A stretch of 64,000 nt of DNA, taken from NCBI GenBank assembly GCA_002898535.1, contig BEHN01000001.1, positions 325,564 through 389,563 on the forward strand. The letters run 5' to 3'. Source of the DNA: a bacterium HR11 (GTDB lineage: Bacteria > Acidobacteriota > HRBIN11). This document shows, piece by piece, positions 14,827-60,890 of the stretch. Position 1 is the first letter of the stretch. Each line of letters starts with the position of its first letter. The translations under genes were made by a program, and so were the position numbers. The notes beneath the pieces were generated by a model that searched no databases, was not told the origin of the DNA, and was given only the letters and a program-made list of their open reading frames with translations.

Positions 14827-16542
14827 ATGGCTCGCATCGTCGTCGACCCCATCACCCGCATCGAGGGGCACCTCCGCATCGAGGCCGAGGTGGACGGCGG
14901 ACGCATCGTACGGGCCTATTCGTCCTGTACGATGTGGCGGGGTGTCGAGCGGATCCTCATCGGGCGGGACCCCCGGGACGCCTGGGCCTTCGCCCAGCGC
15001 ATCTGCGGGGTCTGCACGACCGTTCACGCCTACGCCTCCATCCGGGCCGTGGAGGACGCCCTGGGCATCGACGTCCCCCCGCTGGCCCAGGCCTTCCGGA
15101 ACCTCATGATCGCCACGCAGAACGCCCATGACCACGTCATGCACTTCTACCACCTGCATGCCCTCGACTGGGTCAACGTCCCGAATGCTCTGAAGGCGGA
15201 CCCCAAGAAGACGGCCGACCTGGCGCACGCTGTCTCTGACTGGCCGAACTCCAGTGAGGCCTACTTCCGGGACGTCCAGAGCAAGCTCAAGAAGTTCGTC
15301 GAATCGGGCCAACTCGGGATCTTTGACAACGCTTACTGGGACCATCCGGCCTACAAGCTCCCGCCCGAGGCCGACCTCCTGGCCGTCGCCCACTACCTGG
15401 AGGCCCTGGACTGGCAACGGCGGGTCATCCGCATCCTGACCTTCCTGGGCGGCAAGGACCCCCATCCGAACTTCGTGGTCGGTGGCGTGCCCCTGTCGGT
15501 CAACTTGGCGTCCCCGTCGGTTGTTAACGCCGAGGTCCTCTCCATGATCAAGACCCACATCGACGAACTGAAGGCGTTCGTCGAGAAGGTCTACATCCCG
15601 GACCTCATCGCCATCGCCGGCTTTTACAAGGAATGGGCTCAGTGGGGTGCCGGCGTCGGCAACTACCTGGCCTACGGCGAACTCCCCGAGGGCAAGACGA
15701 ACGAAATCGACCGCCTGTATCTCCCCCGAGGGGCCATCCTGGGACGAGACCTCCAGACGGTCCACGACGTCGACCCCAAGGACCCCGAACAGGTCCAGGA
15801 GTCGGTGGCTCACTCGTACTACCGTTATGGCCGGGGCGACAACGTCCTGCTCCACCCCTTCGAGGGCGAGACGGAGCCGAACTACACGGGTCCCAAGCCG
15901 CCGTATGAGTACCTCAACGTGGAGGGCAAGTACAGCTGGCTGAAAGCGCCCCGCTGGCGGGGCCACAGCATGGAGGTCGGCCCCCTGGCCCGGATGCTGG
16001 TCGCCTATGCGAAGGGCAAGCCCTACGTGAAGGAGAAGGTCGACTACGTCCTCCAGAAGCTGGACGCACCCCTCACGGCCCTGTTCTCGACGCTGGGCCG
16101 GACGGCCGCCCGGGCCATCGAGGCCTGGGTCATGGCGGATTATCTGCCGCAGGTCTACGACCGCATCGTCTCCCTCATTCGCATGGGCGACACGACGACC
16201 TTCAACGGCCTCAAGTGGGACCCCTCGACATGGCCCCGGGAAGCGAAGGGCTTCGGCTACATGGAGGCACCGCGTGGGGCCCTTGGCCACTGGGTCACCA
16301 TCCGGGACGGCAAGATCGCTCACTACCAGTGCGTCGTCCCCTCGACATGGAACGGCGGTCCCCGGGACGCGGCCGGTCAGCCCGGCCCCTACGAGGCCGC
16401 CCTGGAGGGCACGCCGATTCAGAATCCGGAAGCGCCCCTCGAGCTCCTGCGGACAGTCCATTCCTTTGACCCCTGCATGGCCTGTGCGGCGCACATCTAC
16501 GACGCCCAGGGTCGGGAAATCGTCCGGGTCCGGGTCCAGTGA
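14827..16542 (+). CDS. hyaB: NiFe hydrogenase, large (catalytic) subunit
   Basis: A 571-residue catalytic subunit that splits or forms H2 at a NiFe(CN)2CO centre. The two Cys pairs that bind nickel are present: RICGVCTTVH near residue 58 and DPCMACAAH near residue 550. After the final His there is a 15-residue tail (IYDAQGR...VQ), removed by the HyaD-type protease once nickel is in place. The N-terminus DPITRIEGHL is canonical. AAAGGAGGGGG precedes the ATG. It sits in order small-large-cytochrome b, the layout of respiratory uptake hydrogenases. Confidence 0.96.
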   Translation: MARIVVDPITRIEGHLRIEAEVDGGRIVRAYSSCTMWRGVERILIGRDPRDAWAFAQRICGVCTTVHAYASIRAVEDALGIDVPPLAQAFRNLMIATQNAHDHVMHFYHLHALDWVNVPNALKADPKKTADLAHAVSDWPNSSEAYFRDVQSKLKKFVESGQLGIFDNAYWDHPAYKLPPEADLLAVAHYLEALDWQRRVIRILTFLGGKDPHPNFVVGGVPLSVNLASPSVVNAEVLSMIKTHIDELKAFVEKVYIPDLIAIAGFYKEWAQWGAGVGNYLAYGELPEGKTNEIDRLYLPRGAILGRDLQTVHDVDPKDPEQVQESVAHSYYRYGRGDNVLLHPFEGETEPNYTGPKPPYEYLNVEGKYSWLKAPRWRGHSMEVGPLARMLVAYAKGKPYVKEKVDYVLQKLDAPLTALFSTLGRTAARAIEAWVMADYLPQVYDRIVSLIRMGDTTTFNGLKWDPSTWPREAKGFGYMEAPRGALGHWVTIRDGKIAHYQCVVPSTWNGGPRDAAGQPGPYEAALEGTPIQNPEAPLELLRTVHSFDPCMACAAHIYDAQGREIVRVRVQ

Positions 16543-46081: not shown

Positions 46082-47149
46082 TTATACCGTCCCGTCCTCC
46101 CGGAAGACCTGACACCGGATCCCCTGCCGGACCTTCGTGAGGACGGCCCGGCCCGTGAACCGCAGGTCTTCCGGGAGTCGGCCCTCCCGGCACGCCGCCC
46201 AGATGGCCCGGGCCAGATTATACGGGACGACCCGTCGGAGACCGATGTAGGAAGTCGTCAACCGGGGGTTGATTTCCATTAGCCACGCTTCCCCGTCGGC
46301 CAGGACCAGGTCCACGCCGACGTAGCCCCGCAAGCCCGGGACCTGCCGGACGGCGGCCTCGGCCACCTCGAACGCCCGGACCCTCAGGGGATGCTGTAGG
46401 GGGACGACGCCGCCTCGATACGTGAAGGGGCATCCGGGGACGACCCGTTGGCCGTTCAGGCTCAAGGGGCGAACACGCCCGTCGTCGGTCACCAAGAGGG
46501 AGACACTGGCATGATCGCCGGGCACGAGTCGCTGAAGTAGAATCTTTTCACAGCGGGTCGTCTGAGCCAAGAGCTCCTGGGCCACGGTCAGTTCCTCCGG
46601 TGACCGGACCCGACAGACGCCCTCACAGCCGGCGCCGTCGACGGGCTTGACGACGAGGGGAAAGCCGAAGCGGATGGCTTCCACCAGCAGGTCGGCCCGG
46701 CGGACGAGCCGGGTCTCCGGCGTCGGAAGGCCGGCGGCCCGGAAGTGCTCGTGACAGGCCCATTTGTCCGTCGCGACGGCCACGGCCATCGGCCGCGAGC
46801 CTACGATGAAGAGGCCGACCGTCTCGACGAGGGCACTGAGACGGGTCAGGACGCCGTTCGTCTCTGGGGCGATGACGAGGGCGGCCTCGCAGGTCTCCAA
46901 GAGGTCGGTCAGGACGGCTTCATACTCGCCGGGCGTCACGTCGACGACGACGTCCGCCCCCCGGGGGCGCCGGGTCAGCCGCCGGTCGTGGGTCGTCACG
47001 GTCCGGACGGCCCCCCAGGCTCGAAAGTCGGTCAGGACGGCTTCAAGCATCGCCCGGCCCTCGGCGGTCAGGCCGGTCGGGAGCTCGCCGGGCGGCCAGC
47101 CCCCGCCGGTGACGAACTCAAAGACGAGGACGCGAGGCGTTCGGTTCAT
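46082..47149 (-). CDS. ATP-grasp ligase, MfnD-like (methanofuran side chain)
   Basis: A 355-residue ATP-grasp protein. VVKPVDGAGCEG (near residue 165) and the metal site LMEINPRLTTSYIGL (near residue 300) are clear. The opening VLVFEFVTGGG is typical of the tyramine-glutamate ligase (MfnD) group and of ATP-grasp proteins in methylotroph C1 clusters. Its place beside mch, ftr and fwd genes supports a role in methanofuran or methanopterin side-chain assembly. The ATG at 47149 overlaps the divergent HisA-like ATG in the shared CATG; in-frame ATGs at 47158 and 47167 would overlap it further. Confidence 0.8.
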   Translation of the reverse strand: MNRTPRVLVFEFVTGGGWPPGELPTGLTAEGRAMLEAVLTDFRAWGAVRTVTTHDRRLTRRPRGADVVVDVTPGEYEAVLTDLLETCEAALVIAPETNGVLTRLSALVETVGLFIVGSRPMAVAVATDKWACHEHFRAAGLPTPETRLVRRADLLVEAIRFGFPLVVKPVDGAGCEGVCRVRSPEELTVAQELLAQTTRCEKILLQRLVPGDHASVSLLVTDDGRVRPLSLNGQRVVPGCPFTYRGGVVPLQHPLRVRAFEVAEAAVRQVPGLRGYVGVDLVLADGEAWLMEINPRLTTSYIGLRRVVPYNLARAIWAACREGRLPEDLRFTGRAVLTKVRQGIRCQVFREDGTV

Positions 47150-47885
47150 GCGAGTCATCCCGGTCATCGACGTTCGGCATGGTATTGTAGTCCACGCCGT
47201 CCGGGGCGACCGAATTCACTATCAGCCCGTCGTCAGCACCCTGGCGGAGCGACCTGACCCACTCGCCGTCGCCCGGGCGTTTCAAGACCGACTGGGTCTT
47301 CGAGAACTCTACGTCGCTGACCTGGACGCCCTGGAGAGCGGCACCGTCCAGTGGGACGTCTTGGAACGTCTCGTCCGGGATGGGGCGACCCAGCTCATGG
47401 TCGACGCCGGCGTCACGGACGTCGAGTCGGCCCGGCGTCTACTCGACGTCGGCGTCCACCGGGTCGTCGTCGGGTCCGAGACCCTGCGTGGGTCTGAGGC
47501 CCTGATGGCCTTGAGCACCTTACCCCCGACCCGACGGGTCTTCAGCCTGGACCTGCGGACGGGCCAGGTCCTATCCCGGAACGCTCGATGGGCCGGTGGG
47601 CCTCCCTGGCCGGTCCTCGATGAGCTCCTGCGGGCCGGGTGGACCGAGGTCATCGTCTTGGACTTAGTTCGAGTCGGGACGCAGACCGGCCCCGATACGG
47701 CCCTCCTGACTGAAGTCCGCCGTCGATACCCCGGCCTCACCCTGCTGGCGGGCGGCGGGGTCCGCCATGTCGAGGACCTCCGCACGCTTGAGGCCCTCGG
47801 CGTAGACGGCGTCCTCGTGGCGACTGCCCTCCACCGGGGTACGATCACAGCCGCCCACATTCGGGATTTACAGATCGGCCCGTGA
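47148..47885 (+). CDS. HisA/HisF-related barrel protein of the C1 cluster
   Basis: A 245-residue beta/alpha barrel that begins RVIPVIDVRHGIVVHAVRG. It has LYVADLDAL and the phosphate-binding LLAGGGVRH and GVDGVLVATALH, but it is distinct from histidine HisA. HisA-related proteins of this type occur with tetrahydromethanopterin genes in methylotrophs and methanogens; their exact reaction is unsettled. It is divergent from the ATP-grasp gene with no spacer between them. The C-terminal end runs into octamer repeats. Confidence 0.82.
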   Translation: MRVIPVIDVRHGIVVHAVRGDRIHYQPVVSTLAERPDPLAVARAFQDRLGLRELYVADLDALESGTVQWDVLERLVRDGATQLMVDAGVTDVESARRLLDVGVHRVVVGSETLRGSEALMALSTLPPTRRVFSLDLRTGQVLSRNARWAGGPPWPVLDELLRAGWTEVIVLDLVRVGTQTGPDTALLTEVRRRYPGLTLLAGGGVRHVEDLRTLEALGVDGVLVATALHRGTITAAHIRDLQIGP

Positions 47886-48231: not shown

Positions 48232-49179
48232 CTATCCTGTCCCGAATGACCGCTTCAGGACGACCGGGTCGACCTGGCCCGCCCGGAAGCTACGCCCGCT
48301 GACGACGTTGGTGACGACGACTTCCGCCGGACTGAAGAGAAGGGGGTCGATGCGGTAAAAGTCGAAATCATAGACTTTGAATATCTCATAAAACGGCCGC
48401 CCATAGTCGGGCGAGGCCGACGATGGTAGCCGGGGCACAAGGGCTTCCAGCTCGGCGTCGTCGGCCTGGACGGTTAAGTACACACGACTGCCGTACAGGA
48501 CGGCGTCGTTCGTCCGCCCGAGGGCATGAACGTCGTCCTCGGCCGGCGGGGGGAGCGGGCAGACGCCCATGCCGTGCAAGACCCGTCGGACGTCAAAGCC
48601 CAGGACGTGAAGCTTGTGAAGGGCCGTCTCGACTGAGCGGGCGGCGACCTGGACGCCCCCGGCCAGGCTGGCCGTCGGGGCGACCAGCAGGGCCAGACGG
48701 GCCGGTTCGACGCCCGCCCGTTGGGCGATGAAGTCGGCGACGTCGGCCGTCGGGAGATGTCGGGTTTCCAGACAGAGGACGGCGACATCGGCCGACTCCT
48801 GATAGCCGAGATGCTCGTAGAGTTCCATCTCGGCCCGGATGAGGGCTCGGGCGGGGCCGCTTCCCATCGCAAAGTAATCTCCATGCCGGACGGCCCAGCC
48901 GGCGTACTGGGCGGCCAGGCAGGCCTCGGCCGGGTGGTCCGTGGAGACGATCACGGCTGGCCAGGTCATGTCCCCCCACGTCTGCCACGTGAGGGCCACG
49001 GTCCCGAGGCCGCCCATGCAGACTTCGGCCAAACGCCGACCGGCTTCGAGGCCGCCAGGGACGTGCACGCCACAATCCAGGACCTCCGTCCCCCCGGGGA
49101 GGACGTGAACGGCGATTCCCAGGGCCTCGGCCTCGGCGGCCATCCGCCGGACGAGGTCATAAGCCCGCCGATTCAACAT
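48232..49179 (-). CDS. mch: methenyl-tetrahydromethanopterin cyclohydrolase
   Basis: A 315-residue Mch that interconverts 5,10-methenyl-H4MPT and 5-formyl-H4MPT. It opens MLNRRAYDLVRRM, with VPGGLEAGRRLAEVCMGGLGTV near residue 40 and YFAMGSGPARAL near 103. GRTNDAVLYGS (near residue 220) is also a family hallmark. Length matches the usual 310-325. GAGGA precedes the ATG. It lies 12 bases after the MNT nucleotidyltransferase gene, so a toxin-antitoxin pair sits between it and ftr. Confidence 0.95.
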   Translation of the reverse strand: MLNRRAYDLVRRMAAEAEALGIAVHVLPGGTEVLDCGVHVPGGLEAGRRLAEVCMGGLGTVALTWQTWGDMTWPAVIVSTDHPAEACLAAQYAGWAVRHGDYFAMGSGPARALIRAEMELYEHLGYQESADVAVLCLETRHLPTADVADFIAQRAGVEPARLALLVAPTASLAGGVQVAARSVETALHKLHVLGFDVRRVLHGMGVCPLPPPAEDDVHALGRTNDAVLYGSRVYLTVQADDAELEALVPRLPSSASPDYGRPFYEIFKVYDFDFYRIDPLLFSPAEVVVTNVVSGRSFRAGQVDPVVLKRSFGTG

Positions 49180-49191
49180 AGGCGTTCCTCG

Positions 49192-49548
49192 TCATCCTTC
49201 TGGCGTATCCCCCCAGACCTCGATGCCCGACTCGATTACGGCATACCAGGTCGGCGCCTCGTGTTTCAGACGCTCCCACTCTTCCTCCGTGTACACGAAC
49301 AGGTCCACTCCGACCGGGAATCCGACGGGGAGATACTCGACCATCCGCTCCCGGCGGGGCTTATCCGAAGAGGCGACGATCACGCACAGGTCCACGTCAC
49401 TCCCGGGGCGGGCCTGGCCCGTCACCCAGGAGCCGAACCAAAGGACCCGGCGCACCTCAGGATGCTCGGCCCGGAGTCGGGCGACGTAATCTCGGACGGC
49501 CCGGGCGATACGTTCCCGGTCAGCCGATTTGACGACGACAGAACTCAA
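49192..49548 (-). CDS. MNT-type nucleotidyltransferase (antitoxin)
   Basis: A 118-residue minimal nucleotidyltransferase. The motif FGSWVTGQARPGSDVDLCV (near residue 37) and the later Asp in VDLFVYT complete the catalytic triad. It follows and overlaps a HEPN gene by 29 bases; such pairs are toxin-antitoxin modules in which MNT modifies HEPN. No ATG is available; the TTG at 49548 has GGAGG six bases upstream and gives a natural length. Confidence 0.87.
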   Translation of the reverse strand: MSSVVVKSADRERIARAVRDYVARLRAEHPEVRRVLWFGSWVTGQARPGSDVDLCVIVASSDKPRRERMVEYLPVGFPVGVDLFVYTEEEWERLKHEAPTWYAVIESGIEVWGDTPEG

Positions 49549-49909
49549 GGAGAGCCTCCGCGCAACGGATCGCCTGCTCGGCGTCCTGCCGGGTATAGAA
49601 ATCTGTCGGGGCCCCCGTGTCGAAACTGTTCGGGTAACGGGTCGGGATATAGTGCTTGTCCAGGGTTCGGGCACAGTCGATCAGGTCAGGCGTCGGCCGG
49701 GCATCCGGCGGCAAGTTCCCGATCAGAGCCGTAAGAGTATGACCCCATGCTTCCATCCCAAGCTTTTGGAACACAGCTTTTAAGGCCTTTTCCGCCGCCT
49801 GCTGAGCGGCAAAGCAACTCCATTCAAAGTCCCCATCTTCCAAAGCATGGCGGGCGTGGCGCAAGTCGGCCTCCGCCTGCCGGAACCAATCCGCATATCG
49901 GTTCGCCAC
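49520..49909 (-). CDS. HEPN-domain protein (toxin)
   Basis: A 129-residue HEPN protein. The helical pattern and the end motif RTLDKHYIPTRYP contain the R-x4-H typical of HEPN ribonucleases. GTG is the start, with GGAGGAG upstream. Paired with the MNT gene downstream. This module is inserted between ftr and mch. Confidence 0.88.
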   Translation of the reverse strand: MANRYADWFRQAEADLRHARHALEDGDFEWSCFAAQQAAEKALKAVFQKLGMEAWGHTLTALIGNLPPDARPTPDLIDCARTLDKHYIPTRYPNSFDTGAPTDFYTRQDAEQAIRCAEALLEFCRRQIG

Positions 49910-50278: not shown

Positions 50279-51178
50279 TTATGAGATCGCTTGTAGCAGA
50301 TCTCGAAGCCGGATCTGGTAGGGGCCCAGCCGGCCGCCGTAGTTGCCGGCCGTGATGTAGCGGGCCCCGTTCTGGGCGGCCGCTTGCAGGCCCCGGCGCA
50401 TGGCCTCTTCGACGGCCGCCAGGCTCAAGCCGTCGACGACGATCTCATAGGTGCAGTTGAGGCCCTGGGGGACCCGCGTGTTTGGGACGAGGCTCCGCAG
50501 GGTCGGACAGAAGGCGTCGTTCGTCGAGGCCGTCAGGAACTTATACCGCCGGGCGCCGACCTTACTGCCGCTTCGGCAGACGCCTCCCGGGAAGGGCAGG
50601 ATCACGCCCGGGACGGTCCGCATCGCCTGCACGGCCGCCTCGGCGGCCCGAAGGGTCGAGGCGGCGTCCGTCCCCAGGAGGATGAGGTTCCCGCCGCCGA
50701 CGGCCCGGGCGATGCCGAAGCGTTCCTCGACGAGGAACTCCCCGTCCATGACGGGGATCCGCCAGAATCGCCGTCCGTCCAGGCGCTTGCTGACCTGATA
50801 GCCGTCGCCGAAGTAACGGATCTGACCGCCGACGTTGACGGTCGGGTCGCTTTCCAGGCCGTTGTAGCAGGCCGTCGTGGCCGCCGTCAGGACGCACTGG
50901 CCGATGCGTTCCATCAAACGCTGGCCGAGGTCCTCGGCCCGGACGGTCATAAGGAGGACGCTCACGCCGGGCCGTCCGTCCGGCGTCTCGTCCGGGGCCA
51001 GTTCCCGTTCGATGCCGGCCTCACAGCCACAGCCGATGACCGACGTGGCAAAGCCTGTCATGGACTGGGCGGCCGTCCAGGCCCAGGCCGCCGTCTCGGC
51101 CGTGATGACGACCCGGGCGGCCCACATCTCGAAGGCCTCGGCAAACGTGTCTTCGACTTCGGCTTCATACAGCCGCAT
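50279..51178 (-). CDS. ftr: formylmethanofuran:tetrahydromethanopterin formyltransferase
   Basis: A 299-residue Ftr/FhcD that moves the formyl group between methanofuran and tetrahydromethanopterin. It opens VEDTFAEAFEMWAARVVITAE; SVIGCGCEAGIE, RYFGDGYQVSK and FPGGVCRSGSKVG are family hallmarks. Length is standard. GGAGAGGAGGGG precedes the ATG. It lies 19 bases after the RFA-P synthase gene, in a run that also contains the fwd genes. Confidence 0.96.
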   Translation of the reverse strand: MRLYEAEVEDTFAEAFEMWAARVVITAETAAWAWTAAQSMTGFATSVIGCGCEAGIERELAPDETPDGRPGVSVLLMTVRAEDLGQRLMERIGQCVLTAATTACYNGLESDPTVNVGGQIRYFGDGYQVSKRLDGRRFWRIPVMDGEFLVEERFGIARAVGGGNLILLGTDAASTLRAAEAAVQAMRTVPGVILPFPGGVCRSGSKVGARRYKFLTASTNDAFCPTLRSLVPNTRVPQGLNCTYEIVVDGLSLAAVEEAMRRGLQAAAQNGARYITAGNYGGRLGPYQIRLRDLLQAIS

Positions 51179-51197: not shown

Positions 51198-52199
51198 TCA
51201 CGCCGTATCGACCCAGAGCCGGCGACCCTGATGATTGGGGGCGACGACCTCGATGGTCGCCGCCTCGGCGAGCGGCCGTCCGTCGGGGCCGGACCGACGG
51301 CGGAGGGCCGCCGCCAGCCGCTCGGCCTGGGCTTCGTCGGCCGCCAGTCCGTAGACCGTCGGCCCCCAGGAACTCTGGCCCGCCCCGGCGGCCCCTAATT
51401 CAAGCAGGGCCTCGACGCACGCCGCCGAGACGGGGTTCGCATAACGGCCGCCCTGAACGGGCGCGAAGGCATCTCCGACGATCTGCTGGATTTCGGTCAG
51501 GGCGCGTCCGAAAGTCACGATGTCCCCTTCCAGAAGGGCCGGCAGAAGTTGGAGCAGGACGAGGCGGCAGAGCCGTCCGACCGTCTCCGGGCTCATCGAG
51601 ACCCGTCGGGCAAAGGCCTCCTCCTCGACGTCGCCGTAAATCCCCCGGGCGTCCCTGGGAATGACCAGCACAAAGCGCCAGCCCGGCGGCAAGGCGTACC
51701 GTCCCAAGAGAGGCGCCAGGCCGGCGTCGGTCCCGTCCGTACGACGACCGCCCTCCAGGACGAGACCCCCGTATAAATAAGTCCAGGTCCCGACGCCTGA
51801 GCGCCGGCCACGCCCGGCCAGGCGGCAGAGCTCGACGGCCGGGAGGTCCCAACCGACCATCCGGGCCAGGGCCTCGACGACGGCCAAGTGAAGCTGGGTC
51901 CCGGACCCCAGGCCGACGTGGGCCGGGATCACCTGATGGACCTCGATGGCCGCGCCCGGCGGTACGGTCCGACCCGCCGTCCGGGCCGCCTCGAAAAACC
52001 GCTCGGCGATAGCCCGGACCCGCTCTGCCCAGGGCCCACGGACCGTGAGGTCGGACGCCGGCCGGACGGCGACCCGAACGACGGGCCGCTCGACGGCGAC
52101 CCCCAGGCCCCCAAAACGTCGCCCCAGGCCACCTTCCAAGTCCAGCATCCCCAGATGCAGACGGGCAGGGGCCTGGACCCAAATCGTCCTCTCCGTCAT
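51198..52199 (-). CDS. mptG: beta-ribofuranosylaminobenzene 5'-phosphate synthase
   Basis: A 333-residue GHMP-fold enzyme for the first committed step of tetrahydromethanopterin synthesis (4-hydroxybenzoate or 4-aminobenzoate plus PRPP). The start VQAPARLHLGMLDL and the loop PAHVGLGSGTQLHLAVVEAL are characteristic, as is the C-terminal GQSSWGPTVYGLA. The ATG overlaps the DUF447 stop by 4 bases. It shows that the organism makes its own methanopterin-type cofactor. Confidence 0.94.
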   Translation of the reverse strand: MTERTIWVQAPARLHLGMLDLEGGLGRRFGGLGVAVERPVVRVAVRPASDLTVRGPWAERVRAIAERFFEAARTAGRTVPPGAAIEVHQVIPAHVGLGSGTQLHLAVVEALARMVGWDLPAVELCRLAGRGRRSGVGTWTYLYGGLVLEGGRRTDGTDAGLAPLLGRYALPPGWRFVLVIPRDARGIYGDVEEEAFARRVSMSPETVGRLCRLVLLQLLPALLEGDIVTFGRALTEIQQIVGDAFAPVQGGRYANPVSAACVEALLELGAAGAGQSSWGPTVYGLAADEAQAERLAAALRRRSGPDGRPLAEAATIEVVAPNHQGRRLWVDTA

Positions 52200-52780
52200 G
52201 GCGGTCGTTCCGATGAGGCCTGCGTCGCGGCCGCCCGTTGCACATACTCGGTCAGGAGGTCCATGGCCGCGTGCTCCCGGGGTCCGCCCGTCTTATCGAC
52301 GATGACCTGCAGACGCTTCCAATCGGCCAGGATGGCGTCCATCGGCAGGAAGCGGACCCGCGTCGCCAGGATGGCCGCCTCGATGACGGCCGCCTGGGCC
52401 CGATTATAGCCGATGAACTCCCGTTGGAACCCGGCGTAGACGACCCGACCCGTCACCCGGGCCCGGGGCTCCCGGGCATCGACGTCTAAGACCTCCAGCT
52501 CCCGCCAGGAACAGGCATCGTCCAGGACGGCACCTCGGACGACGCGGGCCGGGTGCCAGGGGAACTCGGGGTCCGAGATGGCGGCCGCCGCAAAGAAGTA
52601 CACATTGTCCGTCAGGTTGACGACCGCCTGCCGCGTAACGACCACGTTTCGAAAAGTCTTCGTGTCTTGATAGGGCTTCAAGACGATGACGGCATCGCCC
52701 CACTCGACGCCCATCGGGGCAAAATTGACGTGCCCGTTTTCATCACATGTCGTCACGATGGTCTCGACGATGAATGGCAC
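52196..52780 (-). CDS. DUF447-family protein of the methanopterin cluster
   Basis: A 194-residue DUF447 protein (flavin-reductase-like split barrel). It opens ETIVTTCDENGHVNFAPMGVEW, the signature of the family, which is found in methanogens and in H4MPT-containing bacteria. Reaction unknown; a methanopterin-related reduction is possible. GTG start, with AAGGGG eight bases upstream. Overlaps mptG by ATGA. Confidence 0.88.
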   Translation of the reverse strand: MPFIVETIVTTCDENGHVNFAPMGVEWGDAVIVLKPYQDTKTFRNVVVTRQAVVNLTDNVYFFAAAAISDPEFPWHPARVVRGAVLDDACSWRELEVLDVDAREPRARVTGRVVYAGFQREFIGYNRAQAAVIEAAILATRVRFLPMDAILADWKRLQVIVDKTGGPREHAAMDLLTEYVQRAAATQASSERPP

Positions 52781-52973: not shown

Positions 52974-53795
52974 TCATGCCGGGGCCCACTGCAGGATCTC
53001 GCCCTTCCCGGGGACGGCCGTATCACCGGTATAGCGATGGTAGACGCCTTCCAAGGCTTCCGGGGGGATCGGGAATCCCAGAGTTTGCAGGTAGCGAAAG
53101 TACAGGCGCAGAAAAACCGGTCGGTACGTACAGGCGTAGAGAAAGGTCGGCAGAAGCGCCACGGGCCGGAAGGCGACGATCGTCCCCCGGACCATCCAGG
53201 CGCCGGTCCGGATCCCGGCGGCGCCGAACAAAAAGATCGTCCCGCCCCGCATGTGGAGACCGGCAAAGTCCCCGACCGTCCCCCCCACGGCGATGAGACC
53301 CCGGCGGAGCCGCATACCGACCTCCGGGCCGGCAGACCCCTCGATGAGGATCGTCCCGCCCTGCATGCCCACGGGGCTTCCCCGGTAGCCGGCCCCGACC
53401 TGACCGCCGGCGTTCCCGTGGACGTAAATCCGCCCGCCGGTCATCTCGGCCCCCAGCCAGTCGGAAGCGTTTCCGAAGACTTCGATCGTCCCGCCCCGCA
53501 TGAAGGCGCCCAGGTGCATCCCCACGTCCCCACGGATGACGATCCGCCCCCGCGTCATGCCCCGGCCGATCCAGCGGACTTTTCGGAGGTCGCCCTCGAT
53601 GCGAATCTCTTCACCGTCGCCGTCGACTTCGACCTCGAAGAAGTCCCCGAGCCGTCGGGTCCGCTTCCCCAGAAAGACCGGCAGGGCCTGGATCTCTTCT
53701 CGCGACTTGCCGGCCAGGACGTCCGGACAGACGACCTCGGCTTCTAAGGGGACGTGCGGCGTCTCCCGAAGTTTCAAGGTAATGGTTCCGGCCAT
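52974..53795 (-). CDS. fwdC: formylmethanofuran dehydrogenase subunit C
   Basis: A 273-residue right-handed beta-helix subunit (GXGXG family). Repeated GGxIxVxGxAG turns run from residue about 85 to 205 (RGGTIEVFGNASD, TGGRIYVHGNAGG, QGGTILIEGSAG). It is the structural core that holds subunits A, B and D in the Fwd/Fmd/Fhc complexes. It lies 71 bases after fwdA, with a repeat-like octamer (GGCAGATGGGC) between them. Confidence 0.95.
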   Translation of the reverse strand: MAGTITLKLRETPHVPLEAEVVCPDVLAGKSREEIQALPVFLGKRTRRLGDFFEVEVDGDGEEIRIEGDLRKVRWIGRGMTRGRIVIRGDVGMHLGAFMRGGTIEVFGNASDWLGAEMTGGRIYVHGNAGGQVGAGYRGSPVGMQGGTILIEGSAGPEVGMRLRRGLIAVGGTVGDFAGLHMRGGTIFLFGAAGIRTGAWMVRGTIVAFRPVALLPTFLYACTYRPVFLRLYFRYLQTLGFPIPPEALEGVYHRYTGDTAVPGKGEILQWAPA

Positions 53796-53866: not shown

Positions 53867-55507
53867 CTAAGAGCGGGGTCCGGCGCCGCAAGGGCGGACC
53901 TCGGCCGAATGGATTCGCTCCAGCTCGACGGGGTAATTCGCAAAGGAGACCGTGTAGTAGTGCTCAAAGAGCGGCCGGAGAAAGGTCTCGATGCCCTCGT
54001 CGTAAGCGGGCCGGACGACGAATTCCCGACCCAGGACCGTCTTTCGAATCTCGCCGTCCTCGACGACGACCTCGCCGGCCTTGATGACGTACCGGGGCCG
54101 GGCGAACATCCGGCCCGGGTCCGGGTCCTCATCGTAAATGACGATATCGGCATCGGCCCCGGCGCCCAGATGGCCTTTTTGCGAGAGGCCCAGGGCCCGC
54201 GCCGGGCCCGCCGACGTGATGACGACGATTTCAGACAGCGTGTATTCCCGGTCGATGTCTGGGAGGACGATTCGCTTCAGGACCTTGGATGGCAGGGCCT
54301 TCAGACGCTCCCGGCGATAGTCGGCGTCCATCAGAAGGCGGATAATTTCCGGATACCGCCAGAAGGCGCCTCCATTGGGGTGGTCCGTCGTCAGGAAGAT
54401 CCGCCAGGGATCTTGGACCAACAGGAGAAGCTCGAGACCCACGGCCCACTGGACGGCGTTGACCAGGCTTCGCTCCCGGTAGACGTACGGGACGATGCCG
54501 CACCCCGTCTCGTTCTCGATGTCCATGTTGCCCCACTTGTGGCCCGTCAGTTGATACAGGAGGTACTGCCAGGGCCCGTCGGCCGTGACCGTGACGGTGT
54601 CGCCGAAGAGGACGGCCCCGGCGTCGGCCGTCAGGTTCGGGTGGTCGTTCAGGTACTCGGCGATGCGCGGGGCCTCGGACCGGAACGTGGACCAGTCGTC
54701 GCCGCCGTAGGCATGGAACTGCAGGTGGGCCAAATGCGCCCGTCGGCCCTCCAGGAGCTTCATCGTCTCGAGGGTCGTGGCGAAGTTGCCCGGCAGGCCG
54801 AGTTGGTTGCAGTGGAGATGGAGGGGATGGGGCAGGCCGAGGTCCTCGGCGATCTGGGCCAGGGCCGTGATGATCCGGGCCGGCGTCACCCGTTGGTAGC
54901 CGGGGACCGGCTCAAAGAGGCCCTGGACGTTTTGGCCCCACTTCCAGGCGGCGACCCCGCCGGGGTTGACGGCTTTCAGGCCGTAGGCCTTGGCGGCCCA
55001 TACCAGCCAGGCGACGACGTGGCGGACCCGCTCGTAGTCCTCCGCCTCCAGGAGGTCCATGACGATCTCGTTGTTCCCGATCAGGAGGTAACAGCCCTTG
55101 TCTACGATAGGGGTGTCGCGAAGTTCCTCATGGGTGTGCTTGGCCGTCAGGACCGGGACGGCGGCCTCGAAGATCGTCGTCCAGCCCATCGAAGCGTACA
55201 TGTAGCCGGTCGCGAAGGTCGAGGGCGCCACGCCGCCGATGCCGGCTCGACGGGCGGGCGTGCGGGCCAGGGCGACGGCCCGCCGGTGGTCTTCGGGGAT
55301 CATCTCCCGGGCGAAGTTGATGGCCGCCCCGGCGATGTGGGTGTGGATGTCGACCCCGCCGGGCAGGACGACCATCCCCGTGGCGTCGATGACCCGCCCG
55401 CCCGGCACGTCCTCCACGATGCGACCGTCCGCCACACAGACGTCTCGGCAAACCCCGTCCAGGCCGTGGACGGGGTCGTAGACCTTGCCGCCCTTGATGC
55501 GAAGCAT
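53867..55507 (-). CDS. fwdA: formylmethanofuran dehydrogenase subunit A (formate-releasing hydrolase)
   Basis: A 546-residue amidohydrolase that binds two zinc ions and hydrolyses or forms formyl-methanofuran with formate. Metal ligands are visible: HTH in VDIHTHIAG (near residue 58), the lysine to be carboxylated in LKAVNPGG, His in LHCNQLG and HLQFHAYGG, and Asp in TTDHPNGG. The ATG at 55507 gives the standard [12 protein letters not shown] start. Three bases upstream is an unbroken run of 14 G (coding strand), which replaces a normal ribosome site and could vary in length. Downstream of fwdB. Confidence 0.95.
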
Positions 55508-55510
55508 CGT

Positions 55511-55524
55511 CCCCCCCCCCCCCC
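55511..55524 (-). promoter_or_regulatory. 14-base G homopolymer at the fwdA start
   Basis: On the coding strand 14 consecutive G end three bases before the fwdA ATG, preceded by CCCCAT. The run can act as a Shine-Dalgarno-like G tract. An ATG formed at its 5' edge (55526) is +1 relative to fwdA, while an upstream frame (from 55561) is in phase. A change in length would switch these relations, as in slipped-strand phase variation. Run length may also be a sequencing artefact. Confidence 0.6.
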
Positions 55525-55593: not shown

Positions 55594-56919
55594 TTAAGAG
55601 TCCGCGCCGACCGACGATGTCTCACCGCCGGTCCGGCCCGCCAGGGCCTGGCGGATGCGTCGGAGGACCTCCTCGTCGGTCGGGTACGGCGACCGCAGGG
55701 CCGGTCGGAGGGGGATCGGGACCTCGTCCATGCGGTAGACGGTCCCCCCGGCGCTGATACCCGTCGCCGCCGTCAGGATCCCGACCCGGGCGATGCGCAT
55801 CGTCGTACTGACCTTGGGGTCCAGGACGATCGTCGGGACCCGCTTCAGGTGCTCGATGGCCGGCTGGGGCATCGTCGCCGCCGGGTCGGCCCCGACGACC
55901 AGGACGGCGTCTACGTCGCCCCGGACGAGGAGGTCAATGGTCGAAAATTCTCCCGGATTGTAGCGAGGATAACCCCGGTTGAAGCAGACGCCGAAGGGAT
56001 AGCCCGTCGTCCAGCGGAGGACCGTGTCGGCGCCCGTGACGTTGCCGTGGCCCCGCATCGGCATGGCGATGAACTTCGTGAAGGCGTTCAGCTCGGCCGC
56101 CAGCGTCAGGACGGCCGACGAATTCATGTACTTCCCCCGCGTCATCGTCAGGCCCATCCCGAAGAATATCACGCCGAACCGGGCCCGCTTCATCCGCTCC
56201 GCCAGGTCCCGGAGCTGGTCGAGGGTCAGGCCCGTCTGGGCGACCCGCTCCGGGTCGACGGGCTGGTCCTTGATGATGGCCCGGAGGGCCGTCAGGACCT
56301 CGAAGTCCCGACCGGGCCGGATCTGCAGGAAAATGTCCGCCGCCCGGGCGCTGGGCGTCTCCCGGATGTCGACGAGGACCATCGTGCGGTCCTTCCGCCC
56401 GTTCGGGGTAAACTTCCCCTTGGGCGTCAGCGTGTACTTCGTAAAGTGCCGCGGATGGCACTCGGCCGGGTTGCCGCCCCAGTAGATGATGAGGTCGGCC
56501 CGGTTCTTGACCTCCCCCAACGTGCACGCCGGTTTGCCGCCCACCTGGACGGCTATCTCCGTCGGGCCGTGTCAGAGGGAGGTATGGCTGTCGACGATGC
56601 CGCCCGCCAGCTCGGCGAGGAACACGGCCTCCCGCTGGGCCTCCGAGGTGATGTTGCTGAGGCCGTAAATCAACGGCAGGTCGGCCCGGTCCAGGATCTC
56701 GGCCGCCCGTTCGACGGCGGCGTCCAGGGACGCCGGCTTCCCGTCGATCAGGGCGTCCGGATACAGCCGCTCGGCCGTATGATGGAGAAACCAGGCCTCG
56801 CCGAGGCTACAGGCGTTCTTCGCCTTGACGATGCGGTCCCCCTCGGCGTGGAGCTCGATGTCGTCGCACACACAGCCACAGAAGGTACACGTCGCGTTCT
56901 GGACGACGGTCACGGCCAT
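55594..56919 (-). CDS. fwdB: formylmethanofuran dehydrogenase subunit B, selenocysteine-containing
   Basis: A 441-residue catalytic subunit of the Mo/W-bis-MGD enzyme that reduces CO2 to formate inside the Fwd complex. The [4Fe-4S] motif [15 protein letters not shown] opens the chain. Codon 116 is an in-frame TGA (56572-56574) in the setting SL-U-HGPTE, the place of the metal-ligating Cys118 or Sec in archaeal FwdB/FwuB. Both sides are in one frame and fully conserved in style ([27 protein letters not shown]). A bacterial-type SECIS hairpin follows at 56536-56553. The ATG at 56919 has GGAGG six bases upstream; a GTG at 56925 is too close to it. A plain nonsense mutation is the alternative. 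Confidence 0.88.
56536..56553 (-). promoter_or_regulatory. putative SECIS element in fwdB mRNA
   Basis: Starting 19 bases after the UGA, GCCGUCC pairs with GGGCGGC (seven pairs, one of them U-G) around an AGGU tetraloop. Bacterial SECIS hairpins have a short stem about 16-37 bases past the UGA and a G within the first two loop bases, often GGU; all of these hold here. The first bases after UGA (CACGGCCC) match the fdhF-type context. A competing, shorter hairpin (GACGG/CCGUC) with an AGAUAG loop is possible. Confidence 0.72.
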
Positions 56920-56979
56920 CCACAACCTCCGGCTTTACCGTTCCTGTGACCCGTCCGGACCGGACGGGACTCGGAACGT

Positions 56980-57168
56980 TCAGCCCAGGACTCCGCCCCG
57001 CCAGCTCCCACGGACCCGACGGGGCATGTAAGCGCCCTCGTAAAGCATTTCCCAGGCCGGCGGGGACGGCGTTTCGCCCTCCGGCACCGAGGCCGTTTCA
57101 CGGGTCGGCCCGTCCGACCCATCCCAGACGGCCCGGGTCTCCTGTTTCGACTCCATCGTCGTCCTCAC
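56980..57168 (-). CDS. possible small protein between fwdD and fwdB
   Basis: A 62-residue frame starting at GTG 57168, or 58 residues from the ATG at 57156. It is rich in Glu, Pro, Gly and Arg and ends WEMLYEGAYMPRRVRGSWRGGVLG. No family is recognised and the ribosome site is weak. It stands in the fwd operon direction, 60 bases before fwdB, and the sequence is less repeat-like than other gaps, so it may be a real small subunit or linker. Equally it may be chance. Confidence 0.35.
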   Translation of the reverse strand: MRTTMESKQETRAVWDGSDGPTRETASVPEGETPSPPAWEMLYEGAYMPRRVRGSWRGGVLG

Positions 57169-57444: not shown

Positions 57445-57819
57445 TCAAATTCCAGCCGGGTCGACAGAACCCTCCGGGACCGCCTCGACGGGCTCGATCT
57501 CGACCTCCCAGCCCTTGGAGGTCGGCATCCCCGTCCCGTCCGTATCGCCGCCCATCAGACGGCAGGTCGGCGGGCCGTAAGGGACAAAGACGATGCCAGC
57601 CGGGACCTTGCCCGCCTGGCATCGAAAGACGGCCTCTCCGTATTCGGTCCGGACCCGGACGGTCCCGCCGGGCGAGACCCCGAGGGCCTTCATGTCTTCG
57701 GGATGCATCGTCAGAGTCGTCACGATCTCTTCGTAGTCGGCCGTGTCTTTCCCGACGTTAATTTGCCGGCCTTGCTTGGCCGTGCGGCCGGCGATCAGGA
57801 TGAACCGTCGTTCTGCCAT
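57445..57819 (-). CDS. fwdD: formylmethanofuran dehydrogenase subunit D (MGD-binding)
   Basis: A 124-residue molybdopterin-dinucleotide-binding subunit. The start FILIAGRTAKQG, the middle MHPEDMKALGVSPGGTVRVRTEYG and the end FVPYGPPTCRLMGGDTDGTGMPTSKG match archaeal FwdD/FmdD closely in layout. It supplies the second half of the pterin pocket for FwdB. This subunit is expected only where FwdB carries Mo/W-MGD, which supports a catalytic dehydrogenase. GGGAGG precedes the ATG at 57819. Confidence 0.93.
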   Translation of the reverse strand: MAERRFILIAGRTAKQGRQINVGKDTADYEEIVTTLTMHPEDMKALGVSPGGTVRVRTEYGEAVFRCQAGKVPAGIVFVPYGPPTCRLMGGDTDGTGMPTSKGWEVEIEPVEAVPEGSVDPAGI

Positions 57820-59927: not shown

Positions 59928-60890
59928 TTAATCCGTCGACTGGCGGGGCGCTATCTTCCCCAGCGTAAGCGCGCGCAGGTACTGGTAAAGGGCCTCTATT
60001 TGGGTCTTATCCAATAGGCCCCGATAGGCCGGCATACCGCGGCCAGGCCGGCCCTCCCAGATAGCCCGGATGAATTCGGGGTAGCTGAGTTGGAGAAAGC
60101 GTTGTCGAAGCTCCAGACCCCGGCGGCCTAAGACGGCCTGAGTCCCATGACACCGGTCGCAGTAACGATAATACAGCGCCTCCCCGACCCGGGCCGCCGC
60201 CAGGTCCTCCGGCGGGGGCTGGTCCGGAATCACGGAAGACTCTTCGACGTTCGCCGTCAGTAACTCGGCGGGCGCGACGCCGTAGGATTCCAAGACACCC
60301 TGAATCCGGTCGGCGCACCGGAAGAGGTCCGAATCCGACGCGGATGCCCCCTCCCAGGCGGATTTCGGCCACTCCAGGGGCGGAAGGGGTTGAGGGACCG
60401 GAAGCGCTTGGAGGCGGTTTTCCACGTCCGTGACGGCCACGAAGTAACCGGCCAGGGGCGCCCAAACCAGGCCGGCGTCAATCTTCCCCCGATGAAGGTC
60501 TGCAAAGAGCGCGCACGCACCTGCCGGCGAAAGGGGATAAGGTACGACTTGGGCGAACTTATAGCGGGCCGCGATCGTCTCGGCCGGGGTATCGGCCAGG
60601 AGACCGACCCGGAGGCGAGACAAGACCGGGTCGTCCCAGGCCCGGGGAACACCGTCCGGTCTGTCGAGGAGTACCAAGACATAGGTTTGCGTGTAAGGGC
60701 GCACCCGTCGGAGAAGGTCCGGGAGACCAGCCTGTATAGACGTCAGGGCCTCGCAGGATTCCTTCGGCCAGCGGGCCCGAAGGGCGGCAAAGTCACACAC
60801 GGCCGGTAGATCCTCCCCCCCGCCCGGAGACGCCAGGGAAAGACCGACGAACCCCACAAAGGTGAGAAAAAGCTTAGATAATGAATGCAT
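59928..60890 (-). CDS. MoxJ-like binding protein fused to cytochrome c
   Basis: A 320-residue exported protein. After a signal peptide (about 1-20), residues about 25-205 resemble the quinoprotein-dehydrogenase-associated binding proteins (MoxJ/XoxJ), with RVGLLADTPAETIAARY and GKIDAGLVWAPLAGYF. Residues about 225-312 are a class I cytochrome c with haem site CDRCH (244-248) and likely Met ligand in GRGMPAYRG (Met286). MoxJ and the cytochrome partner are normally separate genes. It probably accepts electrons from a PQQ dehydrogenase such as the one next door. GGGAGGT precedes the ATG. Confidence 0.83.
   Translation of the reverse strand: MHSLSKLFLTFVGFVGLSLASPGGGEDLPAVCDFAALRARWPKESCEALTSIQAGLPDLLRRVRPYTQTYVLVLLDRPDGVPRAWDDPVLSRLRVGLLADTPAETIAARYKFAQVVPYPLSPAGACALFADLHRGKIDAGLVWAPLAGYFVAVTDVENRLQALPVPQPLPPLEWPKSAWEGASASDSDLFRCADRIQGVLESYGVAPAELLTANVEESSVIPDQPPPEDLAAARVGEALYYRYCDRCHGTQAVLGRRGLELRQRFLQLSYPEFIRAIWEGRPGRGMPAYRGLLDKTQIEALYQYLRALTLGKIAPRQSTD

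Follow-up and report, generated by a model that had tools for sequence, protein, structure and literature searches.

Does a fwdB gene that is broken by an in-frame TGA in a bacterial genome encode an intact formylmethanofuran dehydrogenase subunit, and if so, how is the TGA read? The gene lies in the window (the whole stretch of 64,000 nucleotides analysed, from contig BEHN01000001.1 of bacterium HR11, an Acidobacteriota genome of 2.99 Mb in 49 contigs). The explanation that we consider highly probable as a whole is a C1 operon in which FwdB is a selenoprotein, accompanied by a second, small gene with its own UGA and SECIS-like hairpin.

The fwdB frame and its setting

When re-read on the minus strand (56919..55594), the fwdB frame comprises 442 codons and ends in TAA. 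Its single in-frame TGA, codon 116 (56574-56572), is embedded in SL-TGA-HGPTE, in agreement with the preliminary description, which had given this codon as the only break in a frame of 1326 bases. No other inactivating change was found in the gene. The read-through product scores 513.6 bits against TIGR03129 (the curated equivalog cut-off is 327.8), and FwdB chains from the PDB match it over the whole length (E 1e-115 to 7e-102). The TGA had been assigned to the Mo/W-ligand column in front of HGP, and alignment with solved FwdB places it there: the column is occupied by Cys in 8rja and 5t5i and by an unknown residue X, presumably selenocysteine (Sec), in 9sfi. The N-terminal [4Fe-4S] Cys motif is also kept, as a ten-residue segment and a following NAC align with CPFCGTLCDD...NAC of 5t5i.

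The operon is on the minus strand in the order fwdD, fwdB, fwdA, fwdC, DUF447 gene, beta-RFAP synthase gene and ftr, followed by a toxin-antitoxin-like pair and mch (Table 1), and fae is located on the same contig. The locus is a tetrahydromethanopterin C1 pathway operon. FwdF and FwdG were not seen among the annotated genes of the window.

Table 1. Positions of the operon genes, UGA codons and hairpins in the window
Feature	Position	Strand	Basis
fwdD, molybdopterin-binding subunit	57445..57819	-	PF01568; NF042908 (below its cut-off)
Small ORF, unannotated, between fwdD and fwdB; 73 aa with putative Sec59 when read through UGA	56935..57156	-	
UGA of the small ORF (putative Sec59)	56980..56982	-	TGA in 71/71 distinct relatives
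SECIS-like hairpin of the small ORF, CCGUCC-GGUCC-GGACGG, 15 nt from the U of UGA	56951..56967	-	
fwdB, formylmethanofuran dehydrogenase subunit B, 441 aa with predicted Sec116	55594..56919	-	TIGR03129 match, PDB FwdB chains, frame
In-frame UGA of fwdB (predicted Sec116), metal-ligand position	56572..56574	-	Aligned with Cys or X of solved FwdB
SECIS-like hairpin of fwdB, GCCGUCC-AGGU-GGGCGGC, within the coding region	56536..56553	-	Pairing in relatives, invariant loop codons
fwdA, amidohydrolase subunit	53867..55507	-	TIGR03121, 719 bits (cut-off 392.75)
fwdC	52974..53795	-	TIGR03122, 279 bits (cut-off 130.65)
DUF447 protein	52196..52780	-	PF04289 and PF20766
Beta-RFAP synthase family protein (H4MPT biosynthesis)	51198..52199	-	TIGR00144, 170 bits (cut-off 113.5)
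ftr/fhcD formyltransferase	50279..51178	-	TIGR03119, 434 bits (cut-off 292.6)
mch cyclohydrolase	48232..49179	-	TIGR03120, 430 bits (cut-off 228.8)

Directly upstream of the fwdA start, 14 consecutive C occupy positions 55511-55524 (G on the fwdA strand). Length changes in this tract could alter fwdA expression, or the tract may be a weak spot of the assembly. The toxin-antitoxin-like pair between mch and ftr (49192-49909, minus strand) consists of an MntA-like nucleotidyltransferase and a second small protein. Beside mch (46082-47885) are encoded an ATP-grasp protein (closest to MfnD, at a score below cut-off) and a HisA/HisF-related protein, which are candidates for methanofuran or H4MPT biosynthesis. 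A protein with a MoxJ-like substrate-binding domain fused to a cytochrome-c-like domain (59928-60890, minus strand) may be linked to methanol or quinoprotein oxidation, and a Ni/Fe-hydrogenase large subunit is encoded at 14827-16542 (plus strand; best matches below curated cut-offs).

Viewed alone, an in-frame TGA in a single metagenome-derived genome could mark a pseudogene or a sequencing error. Computational comparison with relatives contradicts this. A Sec-motif scan of genome contigs gave 83 stretches; the 80 loci listed from these comprise 70 bacterial Sec-fwdB loci (Planctomycetota and Acidobacteriota, apart from a few loci with no taxon name) and 10 archaeal ones. At every locus, the frame stays open to either side of the TGA within the reach of the contigs. 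In the independently assembled sister species (L102, Acidobacteriota bacterium isolate JZ-1.bins.94.201901), the TGA and the frame are kept, and downstream of the TGA the two genes differ by 44 synonymous and 7 nonsynonymous codon changes. The preliminary description had named a misread TGC or TGT and further inactivating mutations in relatives as grounds for rejection; the TGA recurs in independent genomes, and no other lesion was found. Conservation of the TGA refutes the pseudogene or error reading, and the probability that we still assign to it is vanishingly small. The scan pattern required TGA and carries no information on the Sec/Cys ratio; separate protein searches turned up FwdB of either type, Sec or Cys, in Planctomycetota and in Acidobacteriota.

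The genome also encodes the means to decode the codon. The absence of Sec machinery had been named as a further ground for rejecting a Sec-encoding fwdB, and the machinery is present: tRNA-Sec (75.3 bits, with an ARAGORN call of SeC(tca)), selB (280 bits), selA (502 bits) and selD (296 bits), all scoring above curated cut-offs. Two other genes of this genome, selD itself (L018, G000:C19) and a formate dehydrogenase fragment with a UHGPT motif (L148, G000:C8), each contain one in-frame TGA with a strong hairpin after it. The presence of selA in 20 of 20 named genomes with Sec-fwdB was set aside as non-discriminating, because selA is widespread across the phylum, with 29 of its 33 sampled genomes carrying it.

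The hairpin after the fwdB UGA and the origin of the gene

The preliminary description had reported a 7-bp stem closing an AGGU loop at 26-29 nt after the UGA, and this hairpin was recovered at 56553..56536. The pairing holds in 452 of 462 cells across 66 distinct bacterial Sec-fwdB genes, versus 20 of 70 cells in 10 archaeal Sec-fwdB genes, which are without a hairpin after the UGA. Archaeal SECIS elements are located in the 3' UTR. Among 424 codon columns in 68 bacterial Sec-fwdB genes, only two show no synonymous variation, and these are the codons of the hairpin loop: CAG in 68/68 genes, and TTG for 65/65 of the Leu codons, versus a TTG share of just 18% among Leu codons in these genes. 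Between the window and the sister species, there is no codon difference of either type within the first 24 codons after the UGA. In one relative (L110), the stem contains a compensatory C-G to U-A change. Covariation is otherwise weak (RNAalifold covariation term of about +0.5), because the stem pairs vary little, and a lower stem beneath the hairpin, sought in 69 sequences, found no support.

The folding energy of the window hairpin is unremarkable, with a z of -1.27 against shuffles and -0.2 against synonymous recodings, neither of which is significant. Across groups, the mean z against synonymous recodings is -1.1 for bacterial Sec, -0.35 for bacterial Cys and +0.4 for archaeal Sec genes. 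Given these weak values, energy alone was dropped as evidence for a SECIS. The constraint appears to act on sequence and pairing and not on stability, and for the window hairpin the case is a comparative one. bSECISearch looks for a hairpin just downstream of the UGA with a G within the first two loop bases; the fwdB hairpin has this position and this G, and is under selection. The Rfam model SECIS_1 (RF00031) did not match the window, yet it was equally silent in control genomes, including E. coli.

From these comparisons, the window almost certainly encodes a Sec-FwdB with a bacterial SECIS, and Sec insertion by this element is very likely. SelB and Sec-tRNA would read UGA116 owing to the coding-region hairpin just downstream, and Sec116 would then ligate Mo/W.

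Bacterial FwdB is described as acquired from archaea (PMC10100899). The preliminary description had seen in this gene an archaeal Sec enzyme adapted to bacterial decoding. The bacterial SECIS part of that claim stands, and the tree does not choose between inherited Sec and a Cys-to-Sec change. In the tree, 67 bacterial Sec-FwdB form one group (SH-aLRT 100) apart from 14 archaeal sequences, and the window sequence, L102 and L092, all from Acidobacteriota, branch outside the other Sec genes as drawn. An origin from bacterial Cys-FwdB, by a Cys-to-Sec codon change and acquisition of a new SECIS, would be in line with this separation of the bacterial from the archaeal Sec genes and with the presence of Cys-FwdB in both phyla. 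However, AU tests reject neither the grouping of bacterial Sec with bacterial Cys sequences (p 0.57) nor its grouping with archaea (p 0.51), so the tree is compatible with both histories, and we give the Cys-to-Sec origin an even chance.

In FwdB-like proteins of some Planctomycetota (L131, L133-L136), the ligand position is occupied by Gly or Ser. Residues at this position appear to form a series of Sec, Cys, Gly/Ser and loss, in which the Gly/Ser forms would be intermediate between Cys forms and FhcB-like proteins that lack the ligand.

A small frame with a conserved UGA between fwdD and fwdB

The new part of this analysis is a small ORF with a conserved UGA. It runs from 57156 to 56980 up to its TGA, and its read-through product ends 15 nt before fwdB. 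With tblastn, the C-terminal motif of this product was found upstream of most bacterial Sec-fwdB genes. It reads GR[YF]MPRRIRGSxxGRxLG-U-[TSAM]F around the UGA, within the wider core WExI..GR[YF]MPRRIRGSxxGRxLGU[TSAM]F. When any codon was allowed after the motif, TGA was found in 77/77 occurrences (71/71 distinct sequences), followed in frame by T, S, A or M and then F in every case; the stops farther downstream are mixed (TGA 35, TAA 25, TAG 11). Of the 18 codons that precede the UGA, most vary freely at the third position and hardly at all at the first two.

The small ORF also has a hairpin of its own. In relatives, the distance from the U to the hairpin is 15 or 18 nt; six base pairs form the stem and five nucleotides the loop, whose second and third positions are almost always G-U. 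Stem pair 4 is C-G, U-A or U-G. Across 49 sequences, there are 21 double-change cells (shuffle mean 7.9; 0/500), and covariation scores 0.229 (0.134 in shuffles; 0/500), with much lower scores in slid registers; in both comparisons the shuffles ignore kinship. On the FwdB tree, pair 4 needs about 10 changes, and fully independent pairs are too few for a sign test. The window hairpin folds at -22.1 kcal/mol (z -2.85).

The frame continues for just about 11-38 codons past the UGA, as it might if the UGA were an ordinary stop and the hairpin an intergenic terminator or an unrelated element. This is very unlikely: the codon is TGA in all 71 distinct relatives, the GU-containing loop is at SECIS distance on a stem with compensatory changes, no T-run follows the hairpin in the window, and codon constraint continues beyond the UGA, with Phe encoded by TTC or TTT in 71/71 sequences (third base free) and Pro present in 66/71. 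Translation through the UGA as Sec is, in all likelihood, how this frame is read, which would make its product a probable unrecognised small selenoprotein. What computation shows for the two genes is the frames, the UGAs, their conservation, the RNA-level constraint and the Sec machinery; from there, insertion of Sec, metal ligation and a role for the small protein are inferred. Searches with the protein in Pfam, NCBIfam, PDB and plasmids gave no credible match, and its AlphaFold model (pLDDT 60, low confidence) contains just a short beta-hairpin. It has conserved Arg and Gly residues and one predicted Sec near the C-terminus; a second, conserved Cys is missing, and with it any redox motif that would hint at a role.

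The distribution of the small gene follows that of the Sec enzyme. It is present at 65 of the 70 bacterial Sec-fwdB loci, in two phyla and in the order fwdD-small gene-fwdB. Of the five loci without it, L048, L064 and L074 offer under 500 nt of upstream flank, which leaves 65 of 67 assessable loci with the gene, and at the remaining two (L055, L083) fwdD is likewise absent nearby. The gene was absent from every Cys-fwdB locus examined (mostly with flanks of about 9 kb) and from all archaeal loci examined, and no homologue with Cys at the Sec position was found among the fwd loci examined. In a genome with both forms of fwdB (G680), it adjoins the Sec copy, with the Cys copy 8 kb away.

Since the gene keeps company with the Sec form, its product may be a partner of the FwdB/FwdD site or a factor in its maturation. 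A different role would follow if the ORF ended at its UGA and the hairpin were part of a regulatory or selenium-sensing leader, acting only in cis, that couples fwdB translation to Sec supply. Such a leader would be sensible for a gene that itself needs Sec; the tail past the UGA is short and often ends at or overlaps the fwdB start, and conserved residues fill the 25 codons before the UGA, much as arrest peptides have conserved residues just ahead of their stop region. We nevertheless consider a leader unlikely, given the coding-type constraint past the UGA described above and four loci in which the ORF is conserved even though other genes lie between it and fwdB. In L054, a second FwdB-like gene is inserted between the small-ORF UGA (4145) and the fwdB start (5662, plus strand), and the genes that intervene in L066, L087 and L089 are unrelated ones, which argues for a trans-acting protein over a leader. 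The tandem FwdB-like gene in front of Sec-fwdB in L054 has Thr at the metal-ligand position (SL-T-HG).

On this comparative evidence, the small protein is rather likely to be a trans-acting partner of Sec-FwdB. We favour, with similar and moderate confidence, a new family of small selenoproteins that would be the obligate partner of the Sec-type but not the Cys-type bacterial enzyme, for example as a subunit or as a loading or protecting factor for the Se-Mo/W site. In the proposed mechanism, the 73-aa product with Sec59 would most likely act in trans as partner or maturation factor of the Sec-form FwdB/FwdD module.

For an ancient CO2/formyl enzyme, these results point to an active-site Sec decoded by a coding-region SECIS of bacterial type in two phyla, in genes that standard annotation breaks at the UGA. 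Should the small ORF prove real, a well-studied C1 enzyme would have a conserved selenoprotein companion, overlooked because it is short and contains a UGA. Because this companion follows only the Sec form, it would offer a direct experimental way into the question of why Sec is used by some FwdB and Cys by others.

Comparison with known systems

The Sec-FwdB of the window belongs to an already published type. The main text of Kim et al. 2016 (PMC4807772) describes Sec-FmdB in the Rhodopirellula-like planctomycete P2 and a Lake Washington fosmid, with an fmdD-B-A-C operon and full Sec machinery, and FwdB is listed among the selenoprotein families that occur in bacteria and archaea alike (PMC9312934, PMC13188914). 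The window gene is therefore not the first of its type. It shares with the system of Kim et al. a bacterial Sec-containing FwdB/FmdB, the D-B-A-C gene order and the Sec machinery, and the tree places it in one Sec clade with many Planctomycetota genes. It differs in its host, an Acidobacteriota bacterium, and in its loop, which is AGGU and not the AGUU found there. No mention of the small ORF was found in passages of that paper's main text.

Small prokaryotic selenoproteins in a 2026 inventory of 119 families (PMC13188914) resemble the predicted product of the small ORF in being short, with one Sec and a SECIS just downstream. However, neither the LG-U-[TSAM]F motif nor a tie to the fwd operon is found in any family listed there.

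The bacterial Fhc complex shares the subunit family and the C1 pathway with the window operon. FhcB has lost the metal ligand and the cofactor (PMC10100899), whereas the window FwdB retains the predicted Sec ligand and the N-terminal Cys motif.

Archaeal FwuB of methanogens is the same subunit with a UGA-encoded residue at the same ligand column. In contrast to the window gene, it contains no in-frame hairpin after the UGA, and it belongs to a separate clade.

In its decoding signals, the window gene resembles bacterial formate dehydrogenase (FdhA/FdhF), which has the same UGA-HGP motif and a downstream hairpin in the coding region. The preliminary description had pointed out a likeness to the fdhF context after the TGA; 16 nt (UGACACGGCCCGACGG) are common to fwdB and the formate dehydrogenase gene of the same genome. 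The two enzymes differ in that formate dehydrogenase belongs to another subunit family, and the fwdB loop is located a few nucleotides farther from the UGA.
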